Origin: Streptomyces sp. SLBN-31
Lineage (GTDB): Bacteria > Actinomycetota > Actinomycetes > Streptomycetales > Streptomycetaceae
DNA length: 64,000 bases
NCBI RefSeq assembly: GCF_006715395.1
Contig: NZ_VFNC01000003.1
Location: 744,001-808,000 of the forward strand
Direction: 5' to 3'
This document shows, piece after piece, positions 14,434-56,990 of the stretch; within the stretch, counting starts at the first letter, position 1; every line of letters begins with the position of its first letter. The position numbers and the translations under genes are program-made. The notes under the pieces were generated by a model. It saw only the letters and a list, made by a program, of their open reading frames with translations. It searched no databases and was not told where the DNA came from.

Positions 14434-14453
14434 TGCCGTATTTCCGACTCCTG

Positions 14454-14912: not shown

Positions 14913-14992
14913 GGGATTCCCCCGTAAGGGTTGGAGCTGTGGTCGACACACATTCGATCATGCTGTGCGGAGCGCTACAACGCCTTGACGAA

Positions 14993-15026: not shown

Positions 15027-15044
15027 GACGAAGGTCGGCAGACG

Positions 15045-17027
<1,983 letters not shown>

Positions 17028-28053: not shown

Positions 28054-29118
28054 TCACCTGTCGAAGTCCAGCTCCACCTTCTCCGTCACCGGATGCGACT
28101 GGCAGGCCAGCACGTAGCCCGCCTCGGTCTCCTCCTTCTCCAGCGCGAAGTTGCGGTCCATGCGCACCTCGCCGGAGACCAGGAACGCCCGGCACGTCCC
28201 GCACACCCCGCCCTTGCAGGCGTAGGGCGCGTCGGGACGGTTGCGCAGGACCGTCTCCAGCAGGGACTCGCCGTCGCGGACGGGCCAGGTGCCGCCGCGG
28301 CCGTCGAGGCGCGCGGTGACCGAGCTGTGGACCGGGGCGGAGACGGGGGTGGCGGCCGGGGCGGCGCTGTCCACGTGGAAGATCTCCTCGTGGATGCGGG
28401 CGCGCGGGACGCCGAGCGCGCGCAGCGTCCGCTCCGCCCCCTGCACCAGCCCGAACGGCCCGCACAGGAACCACCCCGCCACCTGACCCACCGGCAGCAG
28501 CGCCGGGAGCAGTCCGGTCAGCCGCTCCTGGTCGAGCCGGCCGGACGGCAGCCCCGCCTGCTGTTCCTCCCGGGACAGCACCGTCACCAACTGCAGCCGG
28601 TCGGGATAGCGGTCCTTGAGGTCGGCGACCTCCTCCAGGAACATCGTCGAGGCGGCGGTACGGTCGCTGCGTATCAGGCAGAACCGGGCCCCGGGTTCGC
28701 GCGCGAGCAGTGTCGAGACGATCGACAGCACCGGGGTGATGCCGCTGCCGCCGACGACGGCCGCGTACAGGCCGGGCGCCGGATCGAGGGTGAAGCGGCC
28801 GGCCGGTGTCATCACCTCCAGCTCGTCGCCGAGGTCGATCTCCTTGAGCGCGTACGTCGAGAAGGCCCCGCCCTCGACCAGCCGCACCCCGACCCGAAGG
28901 ATGGCCGGGCCCTCGTCGCCGGGGGCCGGTGCCGGGGAGCAGATCGAGTACGTGCGCCGGATCTCCGTGCCGTCGACCCTCCGGCGCAGCGCGAGGTGCT
29001 GGCCCGGGGCGTGCCGGTACTCCTCGCGCAGTTCCGGCGGAACGGCGAGGGTGAGGGCCACGGAGTCGTCGGTGAGCCGTTCGACCGCAGCCACGGGGAG
29101 CGAGTGGAAGCGGGCCAT
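28054..29118 (-). CDS. paaE: phenylacetyl-CoA epoxidase subunit PaaE (reductase)
   Basis: This 354-residue flavin and iron-sulfur reductase passes electrons from NAD(P)H to the PaaABC oxygenase. It has an FNR-type FAD domain (RRTYSICSPAPAPGDEGP), an NAD-binding domain (AAVVGGSGITPVLSIVSTLL, then FLCGPFGLVQGAERTL) and a C-terminal plant-type 2Fe-2S domain (YACKGGVCGTCRAF with the fourth Cys in VLACQSHPV). It starts directly after the paaD stop, with no spacing, and is the last gene of paaABCDE. Confidence 0.95.
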   Translation of the reverse strand: MARFHSLPVAAVERLTDDSVALTLAVPPELREEYRHAPGQHLALRRRVDGTEIRRTYSICSPAPAPGDEGPAILRVGVRLVEGGAFSTYALKEIDLGDELEVMTPAGRFTLDPAPGLYAAVVGGSGITPVLSIVSTLLAREPGARFCLIRSDRTAASTMFLEEVADLKDRYPDRLQLVTVLSREEQQAGLPSGRLDQERLTGLLPALLPVGQVAGWFLCGPFGLVQGAERTLRALGVPRARIHEEIFHVDSAAPAATPVSAPVHSSVTARLDGRGGTWPVRDGESLLETVLRNRPDAPYACKGGVCGTCRAFLVSGEVRMDRNFALEKEETEAGYVLACQSHPVTEKVELDFDR

Positions 29119-29691
29119 CTACAGCTCCTTGAAGTGGTCGAAGGGTTCACGGCAGGCGAGGCAGCGGCGCAGCGCCTTGCACGCCGTGGAGGAGAAGCGG
29201 CTGAGCAGCTCGGTGTCGGGGGAGCCGCAGTGCGGGCAGTGGACGGGGTCGGCGTCGAGGGACCGGTGCGGGACCGAGCCGGCCTGCGGACCGTCGCCCG
29301 CCGTCCGCGTCGGGCCCAGTGGCAGCGGGACCGGTCCGGCCGCCGCTCGGGTGCGCGGCGGCGCGATCCCGAACTCCCGCAGCTTGCGCCGTCCTTCGTC
29401 CGTGATGTCGTCGGTCGACCAGGCGGGCACGAGCACCGTGCGGACCTCGACCTCGCGCACGCCGTGCGCGTGCAGCGCCCGTTCTATGTCCAGGGACATG
29501 GTCTCCAGCGCCGGGCAGCCGGTGTACGTCGGCGTCAGCTCCACCTCGACCGAGTCCGCGCCGCGCAGGTGCACCGCGCGGACTACGCCGAGCTCCCGCA
29601 GGGTGAGCGCGGGCAGTTCGGGGTCGGGAACCGAACCGGCGATCCCCAGGAGCTCCGCCTCCAGTGCCGTCGTCCCGGTGGCCGTCACCAT
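29119..29691 (-). CDS. paaD: PaaD, iron-sulfur assembly factor for phenylacetyl-CoA epoxidase
   Basis: This 190-residue protein has a MIP18/DUF59 domain (VPDPELPALTLRELGVV, then LTPTYTGCPALETM) with the conserved Cys, and a C-terminal zinc-ribbon-like region (HCPHCGSPDTEL, then CLACREPFDHF). PaaD is needed to mature the epoxidase, probably its Fe-S clusters. The ATG at 29691 overlaps the paaC stop by 7 bases. Translationally coupled within paaABCDE. Confidence 0.94.
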   Translation of the reverse strand: MVTATGTTALEAELLGIAGSVPDPELPALTLRELGVVRAVHLRGADSVEVELTPTYTGCPALETMSLDIERALHAHGVREVEVRTVLVPAWSTDDITDEGRRKLREFGIAPPRTRAAAGPVPLPLGPTRTAGDGPQAGSVPHRSLDADPVHCPHCGSPDTELLSRFSSTACKALRRCLACREPFDHFKEL

Positions 29692-30416
29692 GACGCCCCC
29701 GGGTGGCTGCGGTGCAGGTACTGCATCTCGGCGAGCATCCGGCCGAAGGGTTCGGTGTGCACGCCCTGCCGGCCCGCGCCGGCCGTCCAGGCGCCGGACC
29801 GGGGTCCCTCGGGGACCGTGAGGGTCGCCCGGCGCAGCACGCCCCCGACCGCGTCCAGCCAGGCCGCCTCCAGCGCGGACGGGTCGACGTCCAGTCCTTC
29901 CACCGGCTGGAACATCTCGCCGGTGAACCGCCACAGGGCCGCCGTCGCCCGCAGCATCCGCTCGCGACTGGACTCGGTGCCGTCGCCGATCCGCAGGGTC
30001 CACTGCTCGGCGTGGTCGCGGTGATAGGCGACCTCCTTGACGGCCTTGGTGGCGAGACCGGCGAATAGGCCGTCACCGGCGGCCAGTTCGGTGTACAGCA
30101 GGTGCTGGTAGGTGGAGAAGTAGAGCTGGCGGGCGATGGTGTGGGCGAAGTCGCCGTTGGGCTGCTCGACCAGCTGGAGGTTGCGGAAGGACCGTTCCTC
30201 GCGCAGGTACGCCAGCTCGTCCTCGTCGCCGACCATGGACAGCAGCACGCGGGCCTGGCCGAGCAGGTCCAGCGCGATGTTCGCGAGGGCGACCTCCTCC
30301 TCCAGGACGGGGGCGTGGCCCGCCCACTCCCCCAGGCGGTGGGAGAGCACCAGGGCGTCGTCGCCGAGGGCGAGGGCGGCGGTCGTGGGGACGGGCGTCG
30401 TCCGTGGTGCCGTCAC
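29685..30416 (-). CDS. paaC: phenylacetyl-CoA epoxidase subunit PaaC
   Basis: This 243-residue ferritin-like structural subunit pairs with PaaA in the epoxidase core. Recognisable segments are LGDDALVLSHRLGEWAGHAP, ANIALDLLGQARVLL and KAVKEVAYHRDHAEQW; PaaC lacks the full diiron ligand set of PaaA. The GTG at 30416 overlaps the paaB stop as GTGA; the longer upstream frame runs through paaB and is excluded. Confidence 0.95.
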   Translation of the reverse strand: MTAPRTTPVPTTAALALGDDALVLSHRLGEWAGHAPVLEEEVALANIALDLLGQARVLLSMVGDEDELAYLREERSFRNLQLVEQPNGDFAHTIARQLYFSTYQHLLYTELAAGDGLFAGLATKAVKEVAYHRDHAEQWTLRIGDGTESSRERMLRATAALWRFTGEMFQPVEGLDVDPSALEAAWLDAVGGVLRRATLTVPEGPRSGAWTAGAGRQGVHTEPFGRMLAEMQYLHRSHPGASW

Positions 30417-30700
30417 AGGTGCTTCACCCCTTCCGGGATCTCGTAGAACGTGGGGTGCCGGTACGGCTTGTCGGCGGCCGGATCGAAGAACGGGTCCTTC
30501 TCGTCCGGTGAGGACGCGGTGATCGCCGCGGACGGGACGACCCAGATGGAGACGCCCTCGCCGCGCCGGGTGTACAGGTCGCGGGCGTTGCGCAGGGCGA
30601 ACTCGGCGTCCGGCGCGTGCAGGCTGCCGGCGTGGGTGTGGGCGAGGCCCCGGCGCGAGCGCACGAAGACCTCCCACAGGGGCCAGTCGGTGTTCGTCAT
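30413..30700 (-). CDS. paaB: phenylacetyl-CoA epoxidase subunit PaaB
   Basis: This 95-residue small subunit bridges the epoxidase hetero-oligomers. It reads [20 protein letters not shown], then [18 protein letters not shown] and [13 protein letters not shown], which is the usual PaaB pattern and length. It overlaps paaA (ATGA) and paaC (GTGA) by 4 bases each. Confidence 0.95.
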
Positions 30701-31692
30701 GCCTGCATCGCTCCCGTGATGTCGTTGTGCTTGGCCGCGTAGGCGGCGGCCGCCTCCCGCACCCACGCGCCCTCTTCGTGGGCCCGCCTGCGCTGGGTGA
30801 GCCGCTGTTCGTTGCACGGTCCGTTGCCCTTGAGGACTTCCTTGAACTCCGTCCAGTCGATCGGGCCGAAGTCGTAGTGCTGCCGCTCCTCGTTCCACTT
30901 CAGGTCGGGGTCGGGGAGGGTGAGACCCAGTGACTCGGCCTGGGGGACGCAGATGTCGACGAAGCGCTGGCGCAGCTCGTCGTTCGAGTGCCGCTTGATC
31001 TTCCACGTCATCGACTGTGCGGAGTGCGCCGACTCGTCGTCGGGCGGGCCGAACATCATCAGCGACGGCCACCACCAGCGGTCGACGGCGTCCTGCGCCA
31101 TCGCGTGCTGCTCCGCGGTGCCACGGCTCAGGGCGAGCAGCAGCTCGTAGCCCTGGCGCTGGTGGAAGGACTCCTCCTTGCAGATGCGGATCATCGCGCG
31201 CGCGTACGGGCCGTAGGAGCAGCGGCACAGCGGCACCTGGTTGGTGATCGCTGCGCCGTCCACCAGCCAGCCGATCGCGCCGACGTCCGCCCAGGTCAGG
31301 GTCGGGTAGTTGAAGATCGAGGAGTACTTCTGGCGGCCGGCGTGGAGCTTGTCGAGCAGCTCTTCGCGGCTGGTGCCCAGCGTTTCGGCCGCGCTGTACA
31401 GATACAGGCCGTGCCCCGCCTCGTCCTGGACCTTGGCCATCAGGATGGCCTTGCGGCGCAGCGAGGGGGCGCGGGTGATCCAGTTGGCCTCCGGCTGCAT
31501 GCCGATGATCTCGGAGTGGGCGTGCTGGGCCATCTGCCGCACCAGCGTCGCGCGGTAGGCGTCCGGCATCCAGTCCCGCGGTTCGATGCGCTCGTCGGCG
31601 GCCACGGCGGCGTCGAAGGCGCGCTCGTACGCGGTGGTGTCGGCGCCCGCCTTCTCGGCGCCGTACGTCTGGTGCGCGGCTGCTGTCGCCAT
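30697..31692 (-). CDS. paaA: phenylacetyl-CoA epoxidase catalytic subunit PaaA
   Basis: This 331-residue diiron oxygenase epoxidises the ring of phenylacetyl-CoA. Helices with the carboxylate/His ligands are seen in [40 protein letters not shown] and DDESAHSAQ. The ATG at 31692 is preceded by GAGGGGG; a much longer upstream frame shows no family similarity. It is the first gene of paaABCDE; the operator at 31734-31747 and a TTGACA (complement at 31783-31788) lie upstream. Confidence 0.96.
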
Positions 31693-31733
31693 GTGGCCCC
31701 CTCGACCTGGGCTCTGCCCGGAACTGTCTACCG

Positions 31734-31747
31734 ACCGATCGTTCGGT
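31734..31747. promoter_or_regulatory. PaaR-like operator upstream of paaA
   Basis: ACCGATCGTTCGGT fits ACCG-NNCGNN-CGGT exactly and is the reverse complement of the site at 36874-36887. It lies about 42-55 bases upstream of the paaA start. Confidence 0.65.
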
Positions 31748-31984
31748 CCGTGCGATTCCATGGTGGGTCGGGCGCCGTAAGGTGTCAACCGCTGTGGATA
31801 ACCCGCGGCCGTGCCCTGTGGACCACGCCCCTGCGGAGCATGGGAATGGGGCGGGTGGGGGCTGTGCGTCGCATGCGGGTCTGAGTACCGTTCCGTGCGA
31901 CTGCGGTGGAGCGGCACATGCGGGCGACTCGGCGCCCGCGGCCGGACAGCCGGAAGACGGACACGGAACGGGAAACGGGGCGGA

Positions 31985-33088
31985 ATGGACGCGTACGACA
32001 CTGGCTCGCACGCCCGGCACGGGCTGGACGGGCCCGACGGGGCGCCCGAGCCGGCCGGTGGGGCGGAGCCGGGTGGGGGCTCGGATTCCGGCGGTGGTGT
32101 GGGGTCCGGCGGGGCCTCGGAGTCGGGCGGTGGCGTGGGGTCCGGCGGGGGCTCGGACTCCGCCGGTGCAGTGGGGTCCGCCGGTGCGAGTGAGTCTGGC
32201 GGTGCGAGTGAGGCTGGCGTTGCCAATGAGCCCGGCGGGGCCGCCGAGAGCACCGGTGGCGTGGAGGCAGACGGTTCGACCGAGCCTGACGGCTGCCCTG
32301 CTCCCATGCCTCGAGGGGACCGGGTCGCCGGGCTGCCCGGCCCGCGGTCGGAGGCGTCCGTGGCCGATGACGGCCCGGCGGCGGGCGGAGCCGGTTCCGG
32401 GCCGCTCACCGTCGTCGTCACCGACACGTTCCCCGAACCCCGCCGCGGTGTCGCCGCCCTGTCGTTCCGCTATCGGATAGCCGCCGCGGTGGCCGTGGCC
32501 GTCGTCGCCGTCACGGTGTTCGTGCACATCGGCATGGTGTTCCTGCACGTCGCGCCGTCGAACACGCTCACCAAGGAGCACGGCAAGGCGATCGACGACT
32601 GGATCTACCCGGAGTTCGAGCAGAACTGGAAGCTGTTCGCGCCCAACCCGCTGCAGCAGAACATCGCGGTCCAGGTCCGTGCCGAGGTGAAGACGGCGGA
32701 CGGCGATGTGCGCACCACCGGCTGGTACGACCTGTCCGCCGAGGACGGCCGGGCCATCGACGCCAACCCGGTGCCGAGCCACACCCAGCAGAACGAACTG
32801 CGCCGTGCCTGGGACTTCTTCGTCGCCACGCACGACGCCTCAAACCGCGCGACGGGCACGCGCGGCTCCCTCGCCGAGACGTACATGCGGCGCATCGTGG
32901 CGCTGCGGCTGGACCGCGACGACGCGGCCGGAAAGAACGGCACGATCACCCGGGTCCAGGTCCGTTCGAGCACCACGAACGTGCCCCCGCCGCCATGGAG
33001 CACGGAGAGGGTCTCGAACCAACCGATGTACCGCATGCTGCCCTGGTGGCCCGTGACGGCCGCCGACACCGCCGGGGGTGCCGAGTGA
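31985..33088 (+). CDS. DUF5819 family membrane protein
   Basis: This 367-residue protein has a Gly/Ser/Ala-rich low-complexity N-terminus (about 20-90) containing tandem 12-residue repeats. One membrane helix follows near 165-190 ([20 protein letters not shown]), then an extracytoplasmic domain with [20 protein letters not shown], the hallmark I associate with DUF5819. Function is unknown. The ATG at 31985 follows GGGGCGGA; the frame upstream to 31811 is poor. Its stop overlaps the HTTM gene's GTG, so the two are made together and probably form a membrane complex. Confidence 0.82.
32087..32194 (+). repeat. three tandem 36-bp repeats in the DUF5819 gene
   Basis: The repeats encode [24 protein letters not shown] and [12 protein letters not shown], followed by a half unit SGGASE to 32212. 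The DNA copies have diverged at several positions. Such repeats can change copy number between strains. Confidence 0.75.
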
Positions 33089-34299
33089 ACCGTTTCGCCC
33101 TGTCGGTCTCCGCCGGCATCGCCCGCATCACCGAGTCGGCGCTCGGCCCGTACCAGTCCGCCGTGATCCGTATCGGCTTCAGCGCGACCTGGCTGCTGTT
33201 CCTGCTGCGGGAGTTCCCGCACCGCCAGGAGATGTATGGACCCGACGCACCGTGGAGCTGGGGCCTGGCCCACCAGCTCGTCGCCTCCAACGGCGCCTTC
33301 ACGGCCCTGATGTGGTCCGACACCCAGATCTGGTTCGAGCTGCTCTTCGCGCTCGCCGTCCTGGCGAGCGCGCTGCTGCTGTTCGGCTGGCGCACCCGCG
33401 CCATGTCCGTGCTGTTCATGGTCGGGGTCGTCTCGCTGCAGAACCGCAGCGTCTTCATGGGGGACGGCGGCGACAACGTCCTGCACCTGATGTCCGTCTA
33501 CCTGGTCTTCACGCGGTGCGGCCAGGTGTGGTCGCTGGACGCGCGGCGCAAGCGGCTCGCCGACGAGGCACGCGCGCGTGGAGAGCGCGTGGTGGACCGG
33601 ACCGGCCCCGCCCTGTGGGCGGTGTTCGGGTTCGCGCTGGTCGCGGTGACCGCCGGGGGCCGCTTCGACGGGATGGACCCGACGGTGCCCGTCATCCTGT
33701 GGCTGACGTGGGTGGCGCAGGCCGTGTGGTGGGTGGTGGCACGCCGGGCGAAGGGCCGGGAGCCGCGCATCCTGCTGGACGTCGTCGCCAACCTCGCGCA
33801 CAACGGCGCCCTGCTGGTGGTCATGGCCGAGGCCTGCATGATCTACTCCACGGCCGGCTGGTACAAGATCCAGGGCACGCGCTGGCAGGACGGCACCGCC
33901 GTCTACTACCCGCTCCACCTGGACTACTTCTCGCCCTGGCCGGCCCTCGGCGACCTGATGTCGTCCAGCGGCACCATGGTGATGCTCGTGACCTACGGGA
34001 CCGTCATCGTGCAGGTCGCCTTCCCCTTCACGCTGCTCAACCGGCGGCTCAAGAACGTCCTGCTGGCGGTGATGATGACCGAGCACGCGGTGATCGCCGT
34101 GGTCCTCGGGCTGCCGTTCTTCTCGCTGGCGATGATCGCGACGGACGCGGTCTTCCTGCCCACGCCGTTCCTGCTTCTGCTGGGTGGAGTGGTGGCACGC
34201 GCGCGTGACCGCGTCGGCGCGAGGACCGGCCGGACACCGCTGCCCGAGCCGCGGGCCGCGGAGAGCGCCGAACCCACGCACGCGAGCTCCACGGCGTGA
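33085..34299 (+). CDS. HTTM-domain (vitamin K-dependent gamma-carboxylase-like) membrane protein
   Basis: This 404-residue polytopic protein has horizontally transferred transmembrane (HTTM) features: PYQSAVIRIGFSATWLLFL, RSVFMGDGGDNVLHL, MIYSTAGWYKIQGTRWQDGT and YYPLHLDYFSPWP. HTTM proteins resemble the membrane part of gamma-glutamyl carboxylase, but bacterial versions have no proven reaction. It is translationally coupled to the DUF5819 gene (GTGA overlap). The pair recurs in Streptomyces to my recollection, suggesting DUF5819 is its partner. Confidence 0.85.
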   Translation: MNRFALSVSAGIARITESALGPYQSAVIRIGFSATWLLFLLREFPHRQEMYGPDAPWSWGLAHQLVASNGAFTALMWSDTQIWFELLFALAVLASALLLFGWRTRAMSVLFMVGVVSLQNRSVFMGDGGDNVLHLMSVYLVFTRCGQVWSLDARRKRLADEARARGERVVDRTGPALWAVFGFALVAVTAGGRFDGMDPTVPVILWLTWVAQAVWWVVARRAKGREPRILLDVVANLAHNGALLVVMAEACMIYSTAGWYKIQGTRWQDGTAVYYPLHLDYFSPWPALGDLMSSSGTMVMLVTYGTVIVQVAFPFTLLNRRLKNVLLAVMMTEHAVIAVVLGLPFFSLAMIATDAVFLPTPFLLLLGGVVARARDRVGARTGRTPLPEPRAAESAEPTHASSTA

Positions 34300-34330
34300 A
34301 CGCCGTCCGCGCGCACGTAGGCTGCACGTC

Positions 34331-35095
34331 ATGACCGACCCCGCCCCGGACCCGCTGAGCACCTGGCGCCGGCTCGCGGAGGGCGCCGTCCTGCTGGACG
34401 GCTTCCACGCCCTCAAGCACGCCGTCCGCTTCGGTGCCGAGGTTCCGGTGGCGGTCACCGCCGACCGGCGAGCGGCGCTGGCCCTCGCCGACGAGTTGGC
34501 GTCCGACGTACGCGAGACGCTGGCCGCGCTCCTGACGGAGGTGCCGGAGTCGACGTACCGGAGCCTGGTCCCGCGCCCGCATCCCACCGCCGTGGCCGCA
34601 CTCGCGGTCCGGCCCTCGCGGGAGGCGAATCTCCGGAAGCTGGCGCACACCCCGCGCGCCACTCCCGTCGTGGTCCTCGACAACCCGCGCAACCTCGGCA
34701 ACGCGGGCGCGGTGATCCGTCTGGCCGCCGGCTTCGGCGCGACGGGGGTCGTCACCACCGGCACGCTCGACCCCTGGCACCCCACGGTCGTGCGCGGCGG
34801 CGCGGGACTGCACTTCGCGACCGCGGTGGAGCGGATGTCCGTCGAGGAACTGCCGCCGGGACCGCTGTTCGCCCTGGACCCGGAGGGCGACGACGTCCGG
34901 GGCATCAAGCTCCCGGACGACGCCGTCCTCGCCTTCGGCTCCGAGCGAAGCGGCCTGTCCGCCGAACTGCGCGGGCGTGCCGACCACTTGGTGGCCCTGC
35001 CGATGCGCCCGCAGGTCTCCAGCTACAACCTGGCGACGAGCGTCGCCATGACGCTGTACCACTGGAGCCTGACCGGCTTCGACGCCGAGGCCTAG
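34331..35095 (+). CDS. TrmH/SpoU-family RNA 2'-O-methyltransferase
   Basis: This 254-residue SPOUT methyltransferase has the family motifs PVVVLDNPRNLGNAGAVIRLA (motif 1), AFGSERSGLS (motif 2) and MRPQVSSYNLATSVAMTLYHW (motif 3), which form the AdoMet-binding knot. It would 2'-O-methylate ribose in rRNA or tRNA; the target is unknown. ATG at 34331 starts after a 31-base gap from the HTTM gene. It overlaps the convergent paaN stop by 4 bases. Confidence 0.9.
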   Translation: MTDPAPDPLSTWRRLAEGAVLLDGFHALKHAVRFGAEVPVAVTADRRAALALADELASDVRETLAALLTEVPESTYRSLVPRPHPTAVAALAVRPSREANLRKLAHTPRATPVVVLDNPRNLGNAGAVIRLAAGFGATGVVTTGTLDPWHPTVVRGGAGLHFATAVERMSVEELPPGPLFALDPEGDDVRGIKLPDDAVLAFGSERSGLSAELRGRADHLVALPMRPQVSSYNLATSVAMTLYHWSLTGFDAEA

Positions 35096-36783
35096 GCCTC
35101 CCTGCGGACCTCGACCACCCGGAAGCGGTTCGCCACGAAGGCTCCGTCGCACAGGGCGGCGTTCGCCGCCGGGTTGCCGCCCGAGCCGTGGAAGTCGGAG
35201 AACGCGGCCGTCTGGTTGACGTACACCCCGCCCGTCAGGTTCAGCGACAGCTGGGCCGCCTCTTCCAGGCAGACCTCCTGGACGGCCTGCTCGACCTCCT
35301 CGTCGGTCGTGTACGCGCCGACCGTCATCGCGCCCTTCTCACGGACCGTGCGCCGCAGCAGCTCCACCGCGTCGGCCGTGGAGTCCATCGCGACGGCGAA
35401 GGAGACCGGTCCGAAGCACTCGCTCATGTAGGCCGCCTCGTCGTCCGGCTTGGCGCCGTCCAGCTTGACGATCACGGGAGAGCGCACGACCGCGCCGGGG
35501 AACTCGGGGTTGGTGATCTCCCGCGAGGCGAGGGCGACTTCGCCGAGTCCGGCCGCCGCCTCCAGACGGGACTTCACGTCCGGGTTCACGATCGCGCCGA
35601 GCAGCGCGTTCGCGCGGGCGTCGTCGCCGAGCAGGCCGTCGACGGCGCGGGCGAGGTCGGCGACCACCTCGTCGAAGGTCTTGGGGCCCTCGTCGGTGCG
35701 GATGCCGTCGCGGGGGATCAGCAGGTTCTGCGGGGTGGTGCACATCTGGCCGCTGTAGAGGGACAGCGAGAAGGCGAGGTTGGCGAGCATGCCCTTGTAG
35801 TTCGCCGCCGAGTCCACCAGCACGGTGTTGACGCCGGCCTTCTCCGTGTAGACCTCCGCCTGACGGGCGTTGGCCTCCAGCCAGTCGCCGAACGCCGTCG
35901 AACCCGTGTAGTCGATGATGCGGATCTCCGGGCGGGTGGCCAGGGCCTTCGCGATGCCCTCGCCGGGCCGTTCGGCCGCCAGCGCCACCAGGTTCGGGTC
36001 GAAGCCCGCCTCGGCGAGCACCTGGCGCGCCACCAGCACGGTCAGCGCGAGCGGCAGCACCGCGCGCGGGTGGGGCTTGACCAGGACGGCGTTGCCGGTG
36101 GCCAGGGAGGCGAACAGGCCCGGATAGCCGTTCCACGTCGGGAAGGTGTTGCAGCCGATCAGCAGCGCGATCCCGCGCGGGACGGGCGTGAACTGCTTGT
36201 TGAGCGCCAGCGGGTCCCGCTTGCCCTGCGGTTTGGTCCACTCCGCGGTGTCGGGCGTGCGGACCTGCTCCACGTACGCGTAAGCCACCGCCTCCAGACC
36301 GCGGTCCTGCGCGTGTGGGCCGCCCGCCTGGAACGCCATCATGAACGCCTGTCCGGAGGTGTGCATGACCGCGTGCGCGAACTCGTGCGTGCGGTCGCTG
36401 ATCCGCTTGAGGATCTCCAGGCACACCACCGCGCGCACCTCCGCGCCCGCGTCCCGCCACGCCTTCTGGCCCGCCTTCATGGCCGGCAGCAGCACGTCCA
36501 CGTCCGCGTGCGGGTACTCCATGCCCAGCTCGATGCCGTACGGCGACACCTCGCCGCCCACCCAGTCGTCCGTACCGGGCTGGCCGAGGTCGAGGCGAGT
36601 GCCCACCAGCGCGTCGAAGGCGGCCTTGCCCGCGGCCATGTCCAGGCTGCCGTTCTCCCCGTAGGCCTTGGGGTGTTCGGGGTGCGGGGACCAGTACGCG
36701 CGTGTGCGGATCGCCTCCAGCGCCTGATCGAGGGTGGGCCGGTGCTCGGCGATCAGCTCGTGCGCGGTCAGTTCGGCGGCCAT
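35092..36783 (-). CDS. paaN: phenylacetic acid degradation protein PaaN (aldehyde dehydrogenase family)
   Basis: This 563-residue aldehyde-dehydrogenase-fold protein matches the PaaN group: PVPRGIALLIGCNTFPTWNG, GNAVLVKPHPRAVLPLALTV, DYTGSTAFGDWLE, and the catalytic-Cys region LSLYSGQMCTTPQNLLIP. It oxidises the semialdehyde formed on ring opening in phenylacetate breakdown. It lacks the C-terminal hydratase (MaoC) domain of PaaZ, so the ring-opening hydrolase must be separate. Divergent from paaH, with an operator between them. Confidence 0.9.
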   Translation of the reverse strand: MAAELTAHELIAEHRPTLDQALEAIRTRAYWSPHPEHPKAYGENGSLDMAAGKAAFDALVGTRLDLGQPGTDDWVGGEVSPYGIELGMEYPHADVDVLLPAMKAGQKAWRDAGAEVRAVVCLEILKRISDRTHEFAHAVMHTSGQAFMMAFQAGGPHAQDRGLEAVAYAYVEQVRTPDTAEWTKPQGKRDPLALNKQFTPVPRGIALLIGCNTFPTWNGYPGLFASLATGNAVLVKPHPRAVLPLALTVLVARQVLAEAGFDPNLVALAAERPGEGIAKALATRPEIRIIDYTGSTAFGDWLEANARQAEVYTEKAGVNTVLVDSAANYKGMLANLAFSLSLYSGQMCTTPQNLLIPRDGIRTDEGPKTFDEVVADLARAVDGLLGDDARANALLGAIVNPDVKSRLEAAAGLGEVALASREITNPEFPGAVVRSPVIVKLDGAKPDDEAAYMSECFGPVSFAVAMDSTADAVELLRRTVREKGAMTVGAYTTDEEVEQAVQEVCLEEAAQLSLNLTGGVYVNQTAAFSDFHGSGGNPAANAALCDGAFVANRFRVVEVRREA

Positions 36784-36873
36784 GCGGGACCAACTCCTCG
36801 TCTTGTGAACTCTCCGTCGAGCTCATGACCTGGGCAGAAATATGGGCAGGAACAGCCGGTCAGAGTTAGAGTA

Positions 36874-36887
36874 ACCGAACGATCGGT
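36874..36887. promoter_or_regulatory. PaaR-like operator between paaN and paaH
   Basis: ACCGAACGATCGGT is a perfect fit to ACCG-NNCGNN-CGGT and the exact reverse complement of the paaA-promoter site. It overlaps AGAGTA (minus-strand TACTCT, a possible paaN -10) at 36868-36875. A DnaA-like TGTGGAAAA lies at 36912-36920. Confidence 0.65.
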
Positions 36888-36943
36888 CGGGACAAGGGGG
36901 TCCGCCGCATCTGTGGAAAACCCCGTGCGGGAGGATCGCGCAC

Positions 36944-38461
36944 ATGACAGCACTGGACCTCAGCAGCCCCGTGGCCGTCGTCGGTACCGGCACCATGGGC
37001 CAGGGCATCGCCCAGGTCGCGCTGGTCGCCGGCCACCGCGTACGGCTGTACGACGCCCTCCCCGGGCGGGCCGGGGACGCCGCCGACGCGATCGGCGCCC
37101 GCCTCGACCGGCTCGTCGAGAAGGACCGGCTCACCGCTGCCGAGCGCGACGCGGCACGGGAGCGTCTGCTGCCCGCCGCGGACCTCGCCGAGCTCGCCGA
37201 CTGCTCCCTGGTCGTCGAGGCGGTCCTGGAGCGGCTGAACGCCAAGCAGGACCTGTTCCGGGCGCTGGAGGACATCGTCGACGAGGACTGTCTGCTCGCG
37301 ACCAACACCTCGTCCCTGTCGGTCACCGCGATCGGCGGGGCCCTGCGCCACCCCGGCCGCTTCGTCGGCCTGCACTTCTTCAACCCCGCGCCGCTGCTGC
37401 CGCTGGTCGAGGTCGTCTCCGGGTTCGCCACCGACGTCACCTCGGCCACACGCGCGTACGAGATGGCGCGCGCCTGGGGCAAGACGCCGGTGGCCTGCGC
37501 CGACACCCCCGGCTTCATCGTCAACCGCATCGCCCGGCCGTTCTACGCCGAGGCCTTCGCGGTCTACGAGGCCCAGGGCGCCGACCCCGCCACCATCGAC
37601 GCGATCCTGCGCGAGTCGGGCGGCTTCCGTATGGGCGCCTTCGAGCTGACCGACCTCATCGGCCAGGACGTCAACGAGTCCGTCACTCACTCGGTGTGGC
37701 AGAGCTTCTTCCAGGACGTGCGCTTCACGCCCTCGCTGGCCCAGCGCCGCCTGGTCGAGTCCGGCCGGCTGGGCCGCAAGAGCGGGCACGGCTGGTACGA
37801 CCACTCCGACGGCGCCGAGCGCGCCGAACCGCACACCGCCGAGAAGGCGCAGGCGCCCGCGTACGTCGTCGTCGAGGGCGACCTGGGCCCCGCCTCCGAA
37901 CTGCTCGCGCTGATCCGCGAGGCGGGCATCCAGGTCCGCGAGGAGGACGAGGACCACGGCACCCGGCTGGTGCTGCCGAGCGGCGGCCAGCTCGCGCTCG
38001 CCGACGGCCAGACCTCGGTCGAGTTCCGCGACGTCGTCTACTTCGACCTCGCCCTGGACTACCGCCGCGCCACCCGTATCGCCCTGTCCGCCTCCCAGGA
38101 CACCGCCCCGCAGACCCTCGCCGAGGCCACCGGCCTCTTCCAGGCGCTCGGCAAGGACGTCAGCATCATCGGGGACGTGCCCGGGATGATCGTGGCGCGC
38201 ACGGTCGCCCGCATCGTCGACCTCGCGCACGACGCGGTCGCCAAGGGGGTGGCCACCGAGGAGGACATCGACACCGCGATGCGCCTGGGCGTCAACTACC
38301 CCCTCGGCCCCTTCGAATGGAGCCGCCGGCTGGGCCGCAACTGGGCCTACGCCCTCCTCGACGACCTGCACCTGCGCGACCCCTCCGGCCGCTACGCGCC
38401 CTCCCTCGCGCTGTACCGCCACGCGTACGCCTCCGACAAGCGGGAGGGCAGCCAGTCATGA
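36944..38461 (+). CDS. paaH: 3-hydroxyacyl-CoA dehydrogenase PaaH
   Basis: This 505-residue NAD-dependent dehydrogenase has the Rossmann nucleotide-binding motif VAVVGTGTMGQGIAQVAL at the N-terminus, NTSSLSVTAIGGAL and GLHFFNPAPLLPLVEV in the catalytic domain, and a second C-terminal helical domain (NYPLGPFEWSRRLG). Length and duplication fit PaaH, which oxidises the 3-hydroxyadipyl-CoA intermediate of phenylacetate degradation. It overlaps the TetR gene by ATGA and so is co-transcribed with its likely regulator. Confidence 0.92.
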   Translation: MTALDLSSPVAVVGTGTMGQGIAQVALVAGHRVRLYDALPGRAGDAADAIGARLDRLVEKDRLTAAERDAARERLLPAADLAELADCSLVVEAVLERLNAKQDLFRALEDIVDEDCLLATNTSSLSVTAIGGALRHPGRFVGLHFFNPAPLLPLVEVVSGFATDVTSATRAYEMARAWGKTPVACADTPGFIVNRIARPFYAEAFAVYEAQGADPATIDAILRESGGFRMGAFELTDLIGQDVNESVTHSVWQSFFQDVRFTPSLAQRRLVESGRLGRKSGHGWYDHSDGAERAEPHTAEKAQAPAYVVVEGDLGPASELLALIREAGIQVREEDEDHGTRLVLPSGGQLALADGQTSVEFRDVVYFDLALDYRRATRIALSASQDTAPQTLAEATGLFQALGKDVSIIGDVPGMIVARTVARIVDLAHDAVAKGVATEEDIDTAMRLGVNYPLGPFEWSRRLGRNWAYALLDDLHLRDPSGRYAPSLALYRHAYASDKREGSQS

Positions 38462-39045
38462 CGACGGCCAAGCGCGACACGTACACCCCGGAGACGCTGC
38501 TGTCCGTCGCCGTGCAGGTCTTCAACGAGCGCGGCTACGACGGCACCTCCATGGAGCACCTGTCCAGGGCGGCCGGCATCTCCAAGTCGTCGATCTACCA
38601 CCACGTGGCCGGCAAGGAGGAGCTGCTGCGCCGCGCCGTCAGCCGCGCGCTGGACGGTCTCTTCGGCATCCTCGACGAGGAGCACGCGCGCGTGGGGCGG
38701 GCCTCCGGCCGGCTGGAGTACGTCGTACGGCGCATGGTCGAGGTGCTGATCGGCGAGCTGCCGTACGTCACCCTGCTGCTGCGGGTGCGCGGCAACACCG
38801 ACACCGAGCGGTGGGCCCTGGAGCGCCGCCGCGACTTCGACCACCGGGTCGCCGGACTGCTGAAGGCCGCGGCCGCCGACGGGGACGTGCGCGGCGACGT
38901 GGAGGTGCGGCTCGCCACCCGGCTGGTCTTCGGGATGATCAACTCCATCGTGGAGTGGTACCGCCCGGACGGGCGGGGGATGAACGAACGCGAAGTGGCT
39001 GACGCGGTCGTGCAGTTGGTGTTCTCGGGGCTGCGCCGCCCCTGA
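38458..39045 (+). CDS. paaR: TetR-family regulator, PaaR-like
   Basis: This 195-residue protein has an N-terminal TetR HTH (YTPETLLSVAVQVFNERGYD, then SMEHLSRAAGISKSSIYHHV) and a helical ligand-binding C-terminus. Co-transcription with paaH, and the ACCG-NNCGNN-CGGT sites at paa promoters, make it the likely phenylacetyl-CoA-responsive repressor. A PaaR site with this core was, as I recall, reported for Corynebacterium glutamicum. The gene ends 2 bases from the convergent bkdR stop. Confidence 0.82.
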   Translation: MTTAKRDTYTPETLLSVAVQVFNERGYDGTSMEHLSRAAGISKSSIYHHVAGKEELLRRAVSRALDGLFGILDEEHARVGRASGRLEYVVRRMVEVLIGELPYVTLLLRVRGNTDTERWALERRRDFDHRVAGLLKAAAADGDVRGDVEVRLATRLVFGMINSIVEWYRPDGRGMNEREVADAVVQLVFSGLRRP

Positions 39046-39047
39046 GG

Positions 39048-39551
39048 TCAGCCCCCCTGCGGCTCCAGGTCCTCCTCCTCGAACACCAGCAGCGTGCGGG
39101 TGCTCAGCACCTCGGGCATGGCCTGCAGACGTGTGAGGACCAGCTCGCGCAGGGCCCTGTTGTCCGACGTGTGAACCAGCAGCAGCACGTCGAAGTCGCC
39201 GCCCACCAGGGCGATGTGCGAGGCGCCGGGCAGCTGTCTGAGCTGCTCGCGCACCGTGCGCCAGGAGTTCTGGACGATCTTCAGGGTGATGTACGCCGAG
39301 GTGCCCTGACCGGCGCGCTCATGGTTGACGCGGGCGCCGAAACCGCGGATGACGCCGTCCTCGATGAGACGGTTGATGCGGGCGTAGGCGTTGGCGCGCG
39401 AGACGTGGACCCGTTCGGCGACCGACCGTATCGATGCCCGGCCGTCGGCCTGGAGCATCTGCAGGATGTCCAGATCGATCGCGTCGAGGGGACGCGGCGG
39501 CGGCAGGGGGACCGTGCTCTCCGGTCCCTCGGCCATTTGTTCAGGTGCCAT
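39048..39551 (-). CDS. bkdR: Lrp/AsnC-family regulator BkdR
   Basis: This 167-residue protein has an AsnC-type HTH (LDILQMLQADGRASIRSVAE, then RVHVSRANAYARINRLIEDG) and a C-terminal RAM ligand-binding domain (TLKIVQNSWRTVREQLRQL, then VGGDFDVLLLVHTSD). It is divergent from the bkd operon, as is BkdR in S. coelicolor, a regulator of branched-chain keto-acid dehydrogenase reported to affect development. The ATG at 39551 follows GGAGGCGGGGGGAC; in-frame upstream starts lack a ribosome-binding site. Confidence 0.85.
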   Translation of the reverse strand: MAPEQMAEGPESTVPLPPPRPLDAIDLDILQMLQADGRASIRSVAERVHVSRANAYARINRLIEDGVIRGFGARVNHERAGQGTSAYITLKIVQNSWRTVREQLRQLPGASHIALVGGDFDVLLLVHTSDNRALRELVLTRLQAMPEVLSTRTLLVFEEEDLEPQGG

Positions 39552-39652
39552 GTCCCCCCGCCTCCCTACCATGGACGTACTGCGTTCATTTAGGGCTGTG
39601 CAGAACCGATTGTCCACAGCCTGAAGGGGCCTGTAGCCAAAATGTGCCGACG

Positions 39653-39666
39653 ACCGAACAATCGGT
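39653..39666. promoter_or_regulatory. PaaR-like operator (one mismatch) upstream of the bkd operon
   Basis: ACCGAACAATCGGT differs from ACCG-NNCGNN-CGGT in one base and from the paaN/paaH site in one base. It lies in the bkdR/bkdA divergent gap, 61-74 bases before the E1alpha start. A DnaA box TTGTCCACA is at 39610-39618. Confidence 0.55.
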
Positions 39667-39726
39667 AGGTGAGGCGGGTCACAGCCGACACGCCTCCCGT
39701 AGCCACTCCCACGAGGAGGTGCCGTC

Positions 39727-40860
39727 ATGACGGTCATGGAGCAGCGGGGCGCGTATCGGCCATCGCCGCCGCCCGCCTGGCAGCCCCGCACCGACCCCGC
39801 GCCGCTGCTGCCGGACGCGGAGCCCTACCGCGTCCTCGGCACCGAGCGGGCGGCGAAGGCCGACCCGGCGCTGCTGCGCCGCCTGTACGCCGAGCTGGTG
39901 CGCGGCCGCCGCTACAACGCGCAGGCCACCGCGCTGACCAAGCAGGGCCGGCTGGCCGTCTACCCCTCCACCACCGGCCAGGAGGCCTGCGAGGTCGCCG
40001 CCGCGCTCGCCCTGCAGGAGCGCGACTGGCTCTTCCCCAGCTACCGCGACACCCTCGCCGCCGTGGCCCGCGGCCTGGACCCCGTCCAGGCGCTCACCCT
40101 CCTGCGCGGCGACTGGCACACCGGCTACGACCCGCGCGAGCACCGCGTGGCGCCCCTGTCGACGCCGCTCGCCACCCAGCTCCCGCACGCCGTGGGCCTC
40201 GCGCACGCCGCCCGCCTCAAGGGAGACGACGTCGTCGCGCTCGCCATGGTCGGCGACGGCGGCACCAGCGAGGGCGACTTCCACGAGGCGCTGAACTTCG
40301 CCGCCGTCTGGCAGGCCCCGGTCGTCTTCCTGGTCCAGAACAACGGCTTCGCGATCTCCGTCCCGCTCGCCAAGCAGACCGCGGCCCCGTCGCTGGCCCA
40401 CAAGGCCGTCGGCTACGGCATGCCCGGCCGCCTGGTCGACGGCAACGACGCGGCCGCCGTGCACGAGGTCCTCACCGACGCCGTACGGCGCGCGCGAGAG
40501 GGCGGGGGACCCACGCTGGTCGAGGCGATCACCTATCGCATCGACGCCCACACCAACGCCGACGACGCCACCCGCTACCGGGGCGACTCCGAGGTCGAGG
40601 CCTGGCGCGCGCACGACCCGATCACCCTTCTGGAGCACGAGCTGACCGAGCGCGGCCTCATCGACGAGGAAGGCATCCGGCAGGCGCGCGAGGCCGCCGA
40701 GACCATGGCCGCCGACCTGCGCGAACGCATGAACCAGGACCCGGTGCTCGACCCCATGGACCTCTTCGCCCACGTCTACGCCGAGCCCACCCCGCAACTG
40801 CGCGAACAGCAGGCCATGCTGGCGGCCGAGCTCGCGGCGGAACAGGAAGGCGGCCACTGA
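39727..40860 (+). CDS. bkdA: branched-chain keto-acid dehydrogenase E1 alpha
   Basis: This 377-residue thiamine-diphosphate enzyme subunit decarboxylates branched-chain 2-oxo acids. The TPP motif is seen in MVGDGGTSEGDFHEALNF...QNN, with E1-alpha features STTGQEACEVAAALAL and FPSYRDTLAAVARGL, and the phosphorylation-loop-like TYRIDAHTNADDATRYR. GAGGTGCC precedes the ATG. It is the first gene of an E1alpha-E1beta-E2 operon with 1-base overlaps. The bkdR gene is divergent. A second, more distant complex is at 54820. Confidence 0.92.
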   Translation: MTVMEQRGAYRPSPPPAWQPRTDPAPLLPDAEPYRVLGTERAAKADPALLRRLYAELVRGRRYNAQATALTKQGRLAVYPSTTGQEACEVAAALALQERDWLFPSYRDTLAAVARGLDPVQALTLLRGDWHTGYDPREHRVAPLSTPLATQLPHAVGLAHAARLKGDDVVALAMVGDGGTSEGDFHEALNFAAVWQAPVVFLVQNNGFAISVPLAKQTAAPSLAHKAVGYGMPGRLVDGNDAAAVHEVLTDAVRRAREGGGPTLVEAITYRIDAHTNADDATRYRGDSEVEAWRAHDPITLLEHELTERGLIDEEGIRQAREAAETMAADLRERMNQDPVLDPMDLFAHVYAEPTPQLREQQAMLAAELAAEQEGGH

Positions 40861-41864
40861 TGACCACCGTCGCCCTCAAGCCGGCCACCATGGCGCAGGC
40901 CCTCACGCGCGCGTTGCGCGACGCCATGGCAGCCGACCCGTCCGTGCACGTCATGGGCGAGGACGTCGGCACCCTCGGCGGCGTCTTCCGCGTCACCGAC
41001 GGGCTCGCGAAGGAGTTCGGCGAGGACCGCTGCACCGACACCCCGCTCGCCGAGGCCGGCATCCTGGGCACCGCGGTCGGCATGGCGATGTACGGTCTGC
41101 GCCCCGTGGTGGAGATGCAGTTCGACGCGTTCGCCTACCCGGCGTTCGAGCAGCTCATCAGCCACGTCTCCCGCATGCGCAACCGCACCCGCGGCGCCAT
41201 GCCCCTGCCGATCACCATCCGCGTCCCCTACGGCGGCGGCATCGGCGGCGTCGAGCACCACAGCGACTCCTCCGAGGCGTACTACATGGCGACTCCGGGG
41301 CTCCATGTCGTCACGCCCGCCACCGTCGCCGACGCCTACGGCCTGCTGCGCGCCGCGATCGCCTCCGACGACCCGGTCGTCTTCCTCGAACCCAAGCGGC
41401 TGTACTGGTCCAAGGACACATGGAACCCCGAGGAGCCGGCGGCCGTCGAGCCGATAGGCCGAGCGGTGGTGCGGCGCCCGGGCCAAAGCGCCACGCTCAT
41501 CACCTACGGACCGTCGGTGCCCGTCTGCCTGGAGGCCGCCGAGGCGGCGCGGGCCGAGGGCTGGGACCTCGAAGTCGTCGACCTGCGCTCGCTGGTGCCG
41601 TTCGACGACGAGACCGTCGCCGCCTCGGTACGGCGCACCGGGCGCGCGGTCGTCGTGCACGAGTCGGGCGGGTTCGGCGGCCCGGGCGGGGAGATCGCGG
41701 CCCGCGTCACGGAGCGCTGCTTCCACCACCTGGAGGCGCCCGTGCTGCGCGTGGCCGGGTTCGACATCCCTTACCCGCCGCCGATGCTGGAGCGTCACCA
41801 CCTGCCCGGCGTGGACCGGATCCTGGACGCCGTCGGGCGTCTGCAGTGGGAGGCCGAGAGCTGA
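40860..41864 (+). CDS. bkdB: branched-chain keto-acid dehydrogenase E1 beta
   Basis: This 334-residue subunit has VHVMGEDVGTLGGVFRVTDG and TPLAEAGILGTAVGMAMYGL at the N-terminal half, VPYGGGIGGVEHHSDSSEAY in the middle and a transketolase C-terminal domain (LEVVDLRSLVPFDDETV). It pairs with E1alpha to form the TPP site. The ATG shares its first base with the E1alpha stop, so translation is coupled. Confidence 0.94.
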   Translation: MTTVALKPATMAQALTRALRDAMAADPSVHVMGEDVGTLGGVFRVTDGLAKEFGEDRCTDTPLAEAGILGTAVGMAMYGLRPVVEMQFDAFAYPAFEQLISHVSRMRNRTRGAMPLPITIRVPYGGGIGGVEHHSDSSEAYYMATPGLHVVTPATVADAYGLLRAAIASDDPVVFLEPKRLYWSKDTWNPEEPAAVEPIGRAVVRRPGQSATLITYGPSVPVCLEAAEAARAEGWDLEVVDLRSLVPFDDETVAASVRRTGRAVVVHESGGFGGPGGEIAARVTERCFHHLEAPVLRVAGFDIPYPPPMLERHHLPGVDRILDAVGRLQWEAES

Positions 41865-43222
41865 TGGCACAGGTGCTGGAGTTCAAGCTCCCCGACCTCG
41901 GGGAGGGGCTCACCGAGGCGGAGATCGTGCGCTGGCTGGTGCAGGTCGGCGACGTCGTCGCCGTCGACCAGCCGGTCGTCGAGGTCGAGACGGCCAAGGC
42001 GATGGTCGAGGTGCCCTGCCCCTACGGCGGCGTGGTCACCGCCCGCTTCGGCGAGGAGGGCACGGAACTGCCCGTCGGCGCCCCGCTGCTGACGGTGGCG
42101 GTGGGCCCGCAGTCCTCCGCCGACCAGGCCGAGGGCTCCGGGAACGTGCTGGTGGGATACGGCACCGGGGCACCTCCGGCGCGCAGGCGGCGGGTGCGGC
42201 CGACGGTGCCCGGCCGGCCGGCCGGGGGCCCCGCCGACGACGGAGCCGACGGCAGGGTCGCGCCCGCCGTGGGACGGGGGCCGCAGCGGCACGACGGGAC
42301 GGTGGCGACGGCCGTCGTCGCGGACCCGGTCAGGCCCGAGGGCCCCGTACCGGTCATCTCGCCCCTCGTCCGCCGCCTCGCCCGCGAGAACGGCCTGGAC
42401 CTGCGGGAGTTGACCGGCTCCGGCCCCGACGGACTGATCCTGCGCGCCGACGTCGAGTACGCGCTGCGTGCCGCCGCACAACGCCCTGTGGCACCGGTCC
42501 CGGCCGCCCCGATGACCGGACCGGCCGCCTCCGGGGAAATCCGTATCCCCCTCAAGGGCATCCGCGGTGCCGTCGCCGACAAGCTCTCCCGCAGTCGGCA
42601 CGAGATACCGGACGCGACCTGCTGGGTGGACGCCGACGCGACCGAGCTCATGCGGGCGCGCGCCGCGATGAACGCGGCGGGCGGGGCCAAGATCTCCCTG
42701 ATCGCCCTTCTGGCCAGGATCTGCACCGCCGCGCTCGCCCGTTTCCCGGAGCTCAACTCCACGGTCGACACGGCGGCCAGGGAGGTCGTCCAGCTCGACC
42801 ACGTGCACCTCGGCTTCGCGGCGCAGACCGAACGCGGCCTGGTCGTGCCGGTCGTCCGGGACGCCCACGCGCGCGACGCCGAGGCGCTCACCGCGGAGTT
42901 CGCCCGGCTGACCGAGGCGGCCCGCACCGGCGGCCTCACGCCCGGGGAACTCACCGGCGGCACCTTCACGTTGAACAACTACGGAGTGTTCGGCGTCGAC
43001 GGCTCCACGCCGATCATCAACCACCCCGAGGCCGCCATGCTCGGCGTCGGCCGCATCGTCCCCAAGCCGTGGGTGCACGAGGGCGAGCTGGCGGTGCGCC
43101 AGGTCGTCCAGCTCTCGCTCACCTTCGACCACCGGGTGTGCGACGGCGGCACGGCGGGCGGCTTCCTGCGGTACGTCGCGGACTGTGTGGAACAGCCCGC
43201 GGTGCTGCTGCGTACGCTGTGA
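41864..43222 (+). CDS. bkdC: dihydrolipoamide acyltransferase E2 of the branched-chain keto-acid dehydrogenase
   Basis: This 452-residue protein has one lipoyl domain (Lys45 in VETAKAMVEV), an Arg/Gly/Pro linker, a subunit-binding domain (VISPLVRRLARENGLDLREL) and a catalytic domain with the HxxxDG motif in FDHRVCDGG. It transfers the acyl group to CoA. No E3 (lipoamide dehydrogenase) gene is present, so E3 is supplied elsewhere. ATG overlaps the E1beta stop by one base. Confidence 0.94.
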   Translation: MAQVLEFKLPDLGEGLTEAEIVRWLVQVGDVVAVDQPVVEVETAKAMVEVPCPYGGVVTARFGEEGTELPVGAPLLTVAVGPQSSADQAEGSGNVLVGYGTGAPPARRRRVRPTVPGRPAGGPADDGADGRVAPAVGRGPQRHDGTVATAVVADPVRPEGPVPVISPLVRRLARENGLDLRELTGSGPDGLILRADVEYALRAAAQRPVAPVPAAPMTGPAASGEIRIPLKGIRGAVADKLSRSRHEIPDATCWVDADATELMRARAAMNAAGGAKISLIALLARICTAALARFPELNSTVDTAAREVVQLDHVHLGFAAQTERGLVVPVVRDAHARDAEALTAEFARLTEAARTGGLTPGELTGGTFTLNNYGVFGVDGSTPIINHPEAAMLGVGRIVPKPWVHEGELAVRQVVQLSLTFDHRVCDGGTAGGFLRYVADCVEQPAVLLRTL

Positions 43223-54297: not shown

Positions 54298-54579
54298 GCG
54301 CCAGATGGTAGGGCACCGGCCAGGGCTGTGAGCTGGGCGTTGTCACAGGCAGTCGCATTTGGTCACGGGACGTGCTCGAAGTGGCGATCCAGGGCACCGT
54401 CCGTGGAACGGACGGTCCGGACCGCGGCCCCCGGGCCCGGCAACCGTTTTCATCCGGTGAGCGGATCTCCCGGCACGAAAATGGACCCTTCCCGTGACCT
54501 GGGTCACCGGGATAACGTGCCGTTGTTCCGGCCCCCTGCAAGGCTGTGACCAGGACTTGTTCCCGCCTTCTGCGATTTA

Positions 54580-54593
54580 CTTGGAAATCCAAG
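54580..54593. promoter_or_regulatory. palindrome CTTGGAAATCCAAG upstream of the second dehydrogenase operon
   Basis: CTTGGA and TCCAAG are perfect arms around AA, in an AT-rich island rare for this genome. The site lies about 230 bases before the E1alpha GTG. Confidence 0.55.
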
Positions 54594-54740
54594 CAAAAAC
54601 GCAGGTCAGGAGGGGTTTCACAGAAATGTGGAGCACTGGGTAACGTGCCTTCTGCAGGGCGCTCGCCGGGGCACCTGTCACGCCTGTTCCCGACCGGGCG
54701 CACCCACCCTGTGCGTCCGTAGGGCTTCAGGTGAGCCGCT

Positions 54741-54768
54741 CCCCCAGGCTCCTGAACGGAGCTGGGGG
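54741..54768 (+). repeat. CCCCCAG...CTGGGGG intergenic hairpin
   Basis: CCCCCAG (54741-54747) and CTGGGGG (54762-54768), extended by CTCC/GGAG, form a hairpin with one bulged G. It resembles the C-rich/G-rich repeats that recur between Streptomyces genes; a leader role is possible. Confidence 0.5.
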
Positions 54769-54819
54769 GACCCCAGGCATCCGGCGAACCCGGGTGGCCG
54801 GACCGACGGAGGAGCACAC

Positions 54820-55998: not shown

Positions 55999-55999
55999 C

Positions 56000-56980: not shown

Positions 56981-56990
56981 GGAGAGGGTC

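Follow-up and report, generated by a model that had tools for sequence, protein, structure and literature searches.

We analysed a stretch of 64,000 nucleotides from Streptomyces sp. SLBN-31 (contig NZ_VFNC01000003.1, positions 744,001-808,000 of the forward strand, in a genome of 9,466,072 bases), called the window below, in which operators of one type stand before genes of phenylacetate catabolism (paa) and before bkdABC, an operon for a 2-oxo-acid dehydrogenase complex. The genes are arranged in the order paaABCDE (minus strand), paaN (minus), paaH-paaR (plus), bkdR (minus) and bkdABC (plus), and the three operators lie within 8 kb. The genes and sites, numbered from the first nucleotide of the window, are the following:

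28054..30700, minus strand: paaB-paaC-paaD-paaE, assigned from the layout of the open reading frames and from tblastn comparison of the frames with other paa clusters.
30697..31692, minus strand (start at 31692): paaA, phenylacetyl-CoA epoxidase subunit (NCBIfam TIGR02156, E 9.6e-159).
31730..31747, minus strand: PaaR-type operator of paaA (core 31734-31747), reading ACCGAACGATCGGTCGGT.
35092..36783, minus strand: paaN (NCBIfam TIGR02288).
36874..36891, plus strand: PaaR-type operator in the spacer between paaN and paaH-paaR (core 36874-36887), reading ACCGAACGATCGGTCGGG.
36944..38461, plus strand: paaH-type 3-hydroxyacyl-CoA dehydrogenase (NCBIfam NF006124, above cut-off; 581 bits against TIGR02279, PaaH, under its cut-off of 669).
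38458..39045, plus strand: paaR, gene of an SCO3833-like regulator of the TetR family, its ATG overlapping the paaH stop codon.
39048..39551, minus strand: bkdR, Lrp/AsnC-type regulator, SCO3832-like by position and family.
39610..39639, plus strand: putative bkdA promoter, TTGTCC-18-TAGCCA, deduced from a block conserved in 27 dereplicated loci.
39653..39670, plus strand: PaaR-type operator of bkdA (core 39653-39666), reading ACCGAACAATCGGTAGGT.
39727..40860, plus strand: bkdA, E1-alpha (NCBIfam TIGR03181, 429 bits, cut-off 411).
40857..41864, plus strand: bkdB, E1-beta, exact start uncertain (NCBIfam E1-beta matches below cut-offs).
41870..43222, plus strand: bkdC, E2, exact start uncertain (Pfam PF00198, PF00364, PF02817).

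Comparison of the three sites showed that the core reads ACCGAACGATCGGT at both the paaA and the paaN/paaH promoters and ACCGAACAATCGGT before bkdA, with 13 of 14 positions equal and the central CG changed to CA. The first-pass annotation had described the sites at 31734-31747 and 36874-36887 as exact reverse complements and the site at 39653-39666 as one base off them; coordinates and letters agreed in each case, and the likeness extends to 18 bp. The operator centres lie 48.5, 63.5 and 67.5 bp upstream of the paaA, paaH and bkdA starts, respectively.

The loose motif ACCGANCNNTCGGT is by itself no evidence, because its 45 matches with two mismatches are near the shuffle expectation (mean 35.8, with 45 reached in 10 of 100 shuffles; not significant). 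The strict core occurred twice in the window without mismatch and once with one mismatch, as compared with means of 0 and 0.017 per 64 kb, respectively, in 60 third-order Markov copies of the window. Across the whole genome, ACCGAACRATCGGT with at most one mismatch was found in six places and the reversed-pattern control in none. These six are the three window sites, one site before a remote paaK gene and two sites to which no role is assigned, L191 and L193, the latter inside a long reading frame. The extended 18-mer ranked the three window sites first genome-wide, with a pattern that was itself derived from those sites. The site at paaK is placed as follows:

Locus L192, 1501-1514 (contig C2, near 784613): PaaR-type site ACCGAATGATCGGT, before the remote paaK (gene 1552-2850; NCBIfam TIGR02155, 709 bits, cut-off 646).

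ACCG-N6-CGGT was present within 300 bp upstream in 9 of 20 paaK loci. A close group of paaK genes (85-90% identity) had the site in 7/7 loci, with a central TG/CA in 7/7, as against 2/13 for the other paaK loci, and control of paaK is therefore lineage-dependent.

Conservation was followed in 80 named Streptomyces loci fetched with BkdR, which are the best 80 of at least 495 confirmed matches and all close relatives, to which we added divergent Streptomyces, mostly chosen for their low BkdR identity, and further members of the order. Presence of the operators was counted in the window and in loci L026-L128, L140-L145 and L171-L174, which make 114 Streptomyces loci (three genomes enter twice, and further repeats among genomes are possible); PaaR-less, second-copy and non-Streptomyces loci are left out of this count, and the denominators count the loci that contain both the gene and the DNA upstream of it. 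The core was found at paaA in 44/44 loci, all reading ACCGAACGATCGGT, at paaN/paaH/paaR in 111/111 loci (110 of them identical, with the same reading), and at bkdA in 110/111 loci, every one found reading ACCGAACAATCGGT; the exception is L142, which carries AGCGAACAATCGGT. The first-pass annotation had taken a bkdA site that is unconserved beside conserved paa sites as the outcome that would speak against shared control, and the bkdA site proved as conserved as its paa counterparts. The 80 named loci (1.52 Mb) contained, at up to one mismatch, 123 paa-type sites, 80 bkd-type sites and 7 others, each locus having one bkd-type site, before bkdA. The counts of genomic places, set against a control of zero, and the conservation across Streptomyces loci ruled out a chance match. 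A pattern that combined the site with a start codon at a set distance was matched in 82 of 393 genomes; since the window itself fails it, this number was not used as a count of site-bearing genomes.

Locus L029 has a PaaR-type site (17660-17681) before a gene at 17796-18944 that by eye resembles the window's acyl-CoA dehydrogenase after paaE (26793-27926, Pfam); there is no PaaA match in this locus. By eye, degenerate repeats rich in GGC/GGT codons were also seen in the window at 31990-32300, near a gene start between paaA and paaN.

In a dereplicated set of 27 loci (ungapped flank identity below 70%), the core positions before bkdA carried 2.0 bits each, partly by construction since the rows were chosen by a pattern requiring most of the core, as compared with 1.18 bits for the upstream flank and 0.23 for the downstream flank; the presence counts over the 114 loci are free of such row selection. 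The upstream conservation is due to TTTGTCCACAG...TGTAGCCAAAATG, a promoter-like pair, and the bkdA operator begins 13 nt past the putative -10, where a bound repressor would meet the initiating polymerase. A candidate second half-site, ACCGATTGTCC (39605-39615), was rejected as unconserved, most listed loci differing from it and often reading ACCGTTTGTCC; it was assigned to the promoter-like block.

Outside Streptomyces, where PaaR and the operon coexist, the site was found in the one genome of family f2 (1/1) and at four of four paaR-linked copies in genera g4 and g5 of family f3, and in none of eight genomes of genus g3 of that family. The f2 genome, G150, has ACCGACCGAACAATCGGTAGGC before bkdA; the f3 genomes have ACCGACCGAAGGTTCGGTAGGT (G158 and G162), CCCAACCGAACCTTCGGTCGGG (G153) or two overlapping CG-centred palindromes (G157). 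In these four the palindrome-bearing bkdA is near paaR, and bkdR was not found in the loci; G162 has a bkdR-linked second bkd copy, and a PaaR-type site was not found upstream of it. The rate in f3 loci predicts about 0.08 matches to ACCG-N6-CGGT in each upstream region of 400 bp. In a tree of BkdA and BkdB those f3 bkd genes that have a PaaR-type site make up a separate clade (support 100), with the g3 genes as its neighbours (support 71). Because of this separate clade and the weakness of the deep branches, f3 does not serve as a simple orthologous footprint, and the bkdA site may have been inherited or gained twice. The four g3 spacers examined (L162, L163, L164 and L170) have CCGAACAAASAATCGGC before bkdA, which is like the bkd operator plus four central bases.

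These loci bear on the idea that the bkdA element is a site of BkdR (Lrp/AsnC), or a core promoter element, that looks PaaR-like by chance. The element does lie in the bkdR-bkdA spacer beside the conserved promoter-like block; however, it is downstream of the -10-like block, the spacer would by chance contain about 5e-5 matches (up to one mismatch), and the palindrome precedes bkdA in the four f3 loci where bkdR was not found. It is also absent before the bkdR-linked bkd genes of G162, G263 and eight g3 genomes, an indirect contrast, as these are other bkd lineages. We regard this explanation as very unlikely. An internal contrast is offered by a second gene set of the window:

54628..58406, plus strand: second E1-alpha/E1-beta/E2 set, its E1-alpha 43% identical to bkdA.

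ACCG-N6-CGGT was not found in 53991-54720, before this set.

Among proteins of solved structure, SCO3833 (PDB 2IAI; E 3.3e-101, residues 1-194) is closest to the TetR protein encoded between the sites; no NCBIfam model names the latter, the best match being far under cut-off. A PaaR match was obtained at E<=1e-60 in 389/393 Streptomyces genomes and, in a class-wide sample, at E<=1e-45 in 35/118 genomes, 25 of which are outside the genus. Twenty of these 25 extra-genus loci were fetched, all outside the order, and 12/20 contained paaA. The protein is thus most likely PaaR: the likeness to SCO3833, the adjacency to paaH and paaN and the presence of paaA in homologue loci bear out the earlier proposal that the PaaR gene lies between the sites, and its suggested co-transcription with paaH fits the overlap of the paaR ATG with the paaH stop codon. 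The tie of PaaR to bkd is seen only in this order, Streptomycetales.

All of the paa promoters counted (paaA, 44/44; paaN/paaH/paaR, 111/111) match ACCG-N2-CG-N2-CGGT, and the change of the central base at bkdA raises the question of which protein reads that site. The first-pass annotation also mentions a PaaR motif reported for Corynebacterium, with the core ACCG-NNCGNN-CGGT. A TG centre is present both in ACCGAATGATCGGT, the operator at paaK in the genome of the window, and in ACCGAATGTTCGGT, which stands at paaN/paaH in G150; TG is the CA of bkdA read on the other strand, and PaaR therefore probably tolerates the central change. A different TetR regulator with a near-identical half-site could instead read the bkdA operator, leaving PaaR to the CG-centred paa sites. 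This would account for the fixed central A at bkdA (110/111 loci) as against the G of the paa cores, and PccD and AccR are TetR proteins reported, in the parts of PMC8176718 and PMC10933834 available, to control branched-chain keto-acid dehydrogenase (BCDH) or acyl-CoA genes in relatives. However, the genome holds no other exact bkd-type core, although an autoregulated TetR protein would be expected to have one, and the only place within one mismatch of it is L193, inside a long reading frame; the listed AccR site, GTTAA-N6-TTAAC (PMC10933834, available part), is unlike the bkdA operator; and the same type of central change is found at paaK and at the G150 paaN/paaH promoter. A second TetR regulator at bkdA is, in our estimation, improbable.

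Four of 393 Streptomyces genomes (G036, G118, G284 and G377) were PaaR-less at E<=1e-60. In G118, neither PaaA nor BkdR had a match at E<=1e-20. In the other three, bkdA-bkdB-bkdC are followed by paaA-B-C-D-E, co-directionally and in one cluster (L161 of G036, 5326-13359; L185 of G284, 7104-15137; L186 of G377, 4750-12728), with an enoyl-CoA hydratase gene between bkdABC and paaABCDE in G036; ACCG-N6-CGGT was not found within 400 bp upstream of their BkdA matches. In the BkdA and BkdB tree these bkd genes fall together with the G162 and G263 second copies (support 100) and not with the native Streptomyces operon; co-loss of PaaR and the bkdA site was therefore dropped as support. The cluster independently joins bkd-type and paa genes. 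None of the four PaaR-less genomes had a paaK match at E<=1e-100, as compared with 20/24 of the others in the same chosen set, and the epoxidase of the three clusters would, without PaaK, need a different source of phenylacetyl-CoA. In G036, paaN and bkdR are elsewhere (L160), without paaR, and a nitric oxide synthase oxygenase-domain gene (Pfam PF02898; L160, 11134-12351) is beside paaN, where the window has paaH-paaR.

By sequence comparison, the operator before bkdA is real and strongly conserved, and it very probably brings the bkd operon under a known regulator. The first-pass annotation had proposed that one TetR regulator co-controls paa and bkd genes, and the conservation of the bkdA site to the level of the paa sites supports this proposal. 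We put at about 0.85 the probability that PaaR acts at bkdA, a figure that does not extend to the substrate of the complex; by this reading PaaR would bind the operator there and tie bkdABC to phenylacetyl-CoA. Several results weigh against this coupling or against its reach. The central base of the bkdA core differs from that of the paa core wherever the former was found in Streptomyces. In all eight g3 genomes with a PaaR homologue (8/8), ACCG-N6-CGGT was not found within 400 bp upstream of the BkdA match, and the site-bearing f3 clade is not joined to the Streptomyces operon in a tree with weak deep branches (support 39-71). A BkdA match was found in 0/20 PaaR loci outside the order, several of which end at contig ends. 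The four PaaR-less genomes lack an orthologue of the native bkd operon, and one of them, G284, carries the one-mismatch ACCGAACAGCCGCT about 100 bp before its BkdA match. Finally, the family models leave the substrate of BkdABC open, because the model matched by bkdA (TIGR03181) is named pyruvate dehydrogenase E1 alpha; pyruvate dehydrogenase E1 alpha also tops the PDB relatives of bkdA, with 2-oxoisovalerate dehydrogenase alpha lower. The S. albus bkdR work, in the part of PMC8176718 available, treats the system as branched-chain catabolism.

If PaaR does control bkdA, it would be a TetR repressor with operators at paaA, paaN/paaH-paaR, the remote paaK and bkdA, probably autoregulated through the operator at paaH-paaR. 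Without phenylacetyl-CoA, PaaR would occupy the bkdA operator, which follows closely on the putative promoter, and would impede initiation; phenylacetyl-CoA, the ligand that releases PaaR proteins elsewhere, including that of Burkholderia cenocepacia (PMC9493321, available part), would release it, and bkdABC and the paa genes would rise together. BkdR would be a second input within the same bkdR-bkdA spacer. The favoured reason is that the dehydrogenase may take phenylpyruvate to phenylacetyl-CoA, at once substrate of PaaABCDE and inducer of PaaR, and the outcome would be a feed-forward loop starting at phenylalanine.

The link between PaaR and bkdA may be less about leucine, isoleucine and valine than about supplying phenylacetyl-CoA made from phenylpyruvate. 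BkdABC could plausibly carry out this chemistry, since PglB/PglC are suggested to perform it and the family models leave the substrate of BkdABC open; that phenylpyruvate is a main substrate is a tentative proposal, to which we give well under even odds. The fuller version is held just as loosely: the complex of the SCO3829-SCO3831 type in Streptomycetales would be mainly an aryl-2-oxo-acid (phenylpyruvate) dehydrogenase of phenylalanine catabolism, passing phenylacetyl-CoA directly to PaaABCDE and bypassing PaaK, with PaaR as sensor of the product, and three PaaR-less Streptomyces would have reached the same coupling through another bkdABC lineage heading a paa cluster. PaaR could also bind at bkdA while the complex is an ordinary BCDH, the link balancing acyl-CoA pools and phenylpyruvate being irrelevant. 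This is compatible with PaaR acting at bkdA, and we rate its chance a little short of even. In the literature, as far as the available parts of the sources go, the operon and bkdR (SCO3829-SCO3832) carry names that refer to branched-chain metabolism; however, a related bkdABC heads the paaABCDE cluster in three genomes where no paaK match was found, and deletion of bkdR in S. albus led, according to the portion of the report available, to no major change in the expression of valine-degradation genes. The available text of PMC8176718 names 'BCDH II' as the main valine complex, with no locus given.

Studies of the bkdR-linked bkd system in Streptomyces treat it as a supplier of building blocks for polyketides. 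Were it under PaaR control, the supply of these precursors would depend on phenylacetate or phenylalanine status, and the phenylglycine antibiotics would be in competition at this one switch; a PaaK-independent way from phenylalanine to phenylacetyl-CoA is also suggested. Literature searched by title and start of abstract gave no PaaR-bkd link, and an earlier report is possible in the primary papers on S. pristinaespiralis PaaR or S. coelicolor BkdR; no paper was found by a search on SCO3833. In a 2026 survey of paa gene contexts (PMC13186573), 'bkd' has 0 occurrences.

Control of the paa cluster by PaaR is published for S. pristinaespiralis (Zhao et al. 2015; via the available parts of PMC10933834 and PMC7089894). 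Its putative site in a review table, AACGA-N4-TCGGT (PMC10933834, available part), fits ACCGAACGATCGGTCGGT and the paa operators described here; the paa cluster alone is named as its target there, 'bkd' having 0 occurrences in the review. In B. cenocepacia, a distant bacterium, the PaaR operators are ACCGACCGGTCGGTT at paaA and paaZ and ACCAACCGGTCGGTT at paaH, and there is no bkd operon among the promoters named in the available part of PMC9493321. For the proposed chemistry the nearest precedent is PglB/PglC of pristinamycin biosynthesis in S. pristinaespiralis, a pyruvate-dehydrogenase-like E1 suggested to convert phenylpyruvate to phenylacetyl-CoA (PMC7089894, available part), although these are genes of a biosynthetic cluster and their likeness to BkdABC is by description only. 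Control of bkd genes by other proteins is also known. BkdR as a bkd regulator is published (SCO3832 is named bkdR in the parts of PMC8176718 and PMC12323332 available) and is encoded next to the same operon, but, being of the Lrp type, it belongs to another protein family than PaaR. The mycobacterial BkaR (Rv2506) is likewise a TetR repressor of branched-chain keto-acid genes, whereas its motif, GTTA-N-T-N4-A-N-TAAC (PMC3920632, available part), is unlike the operator described here.

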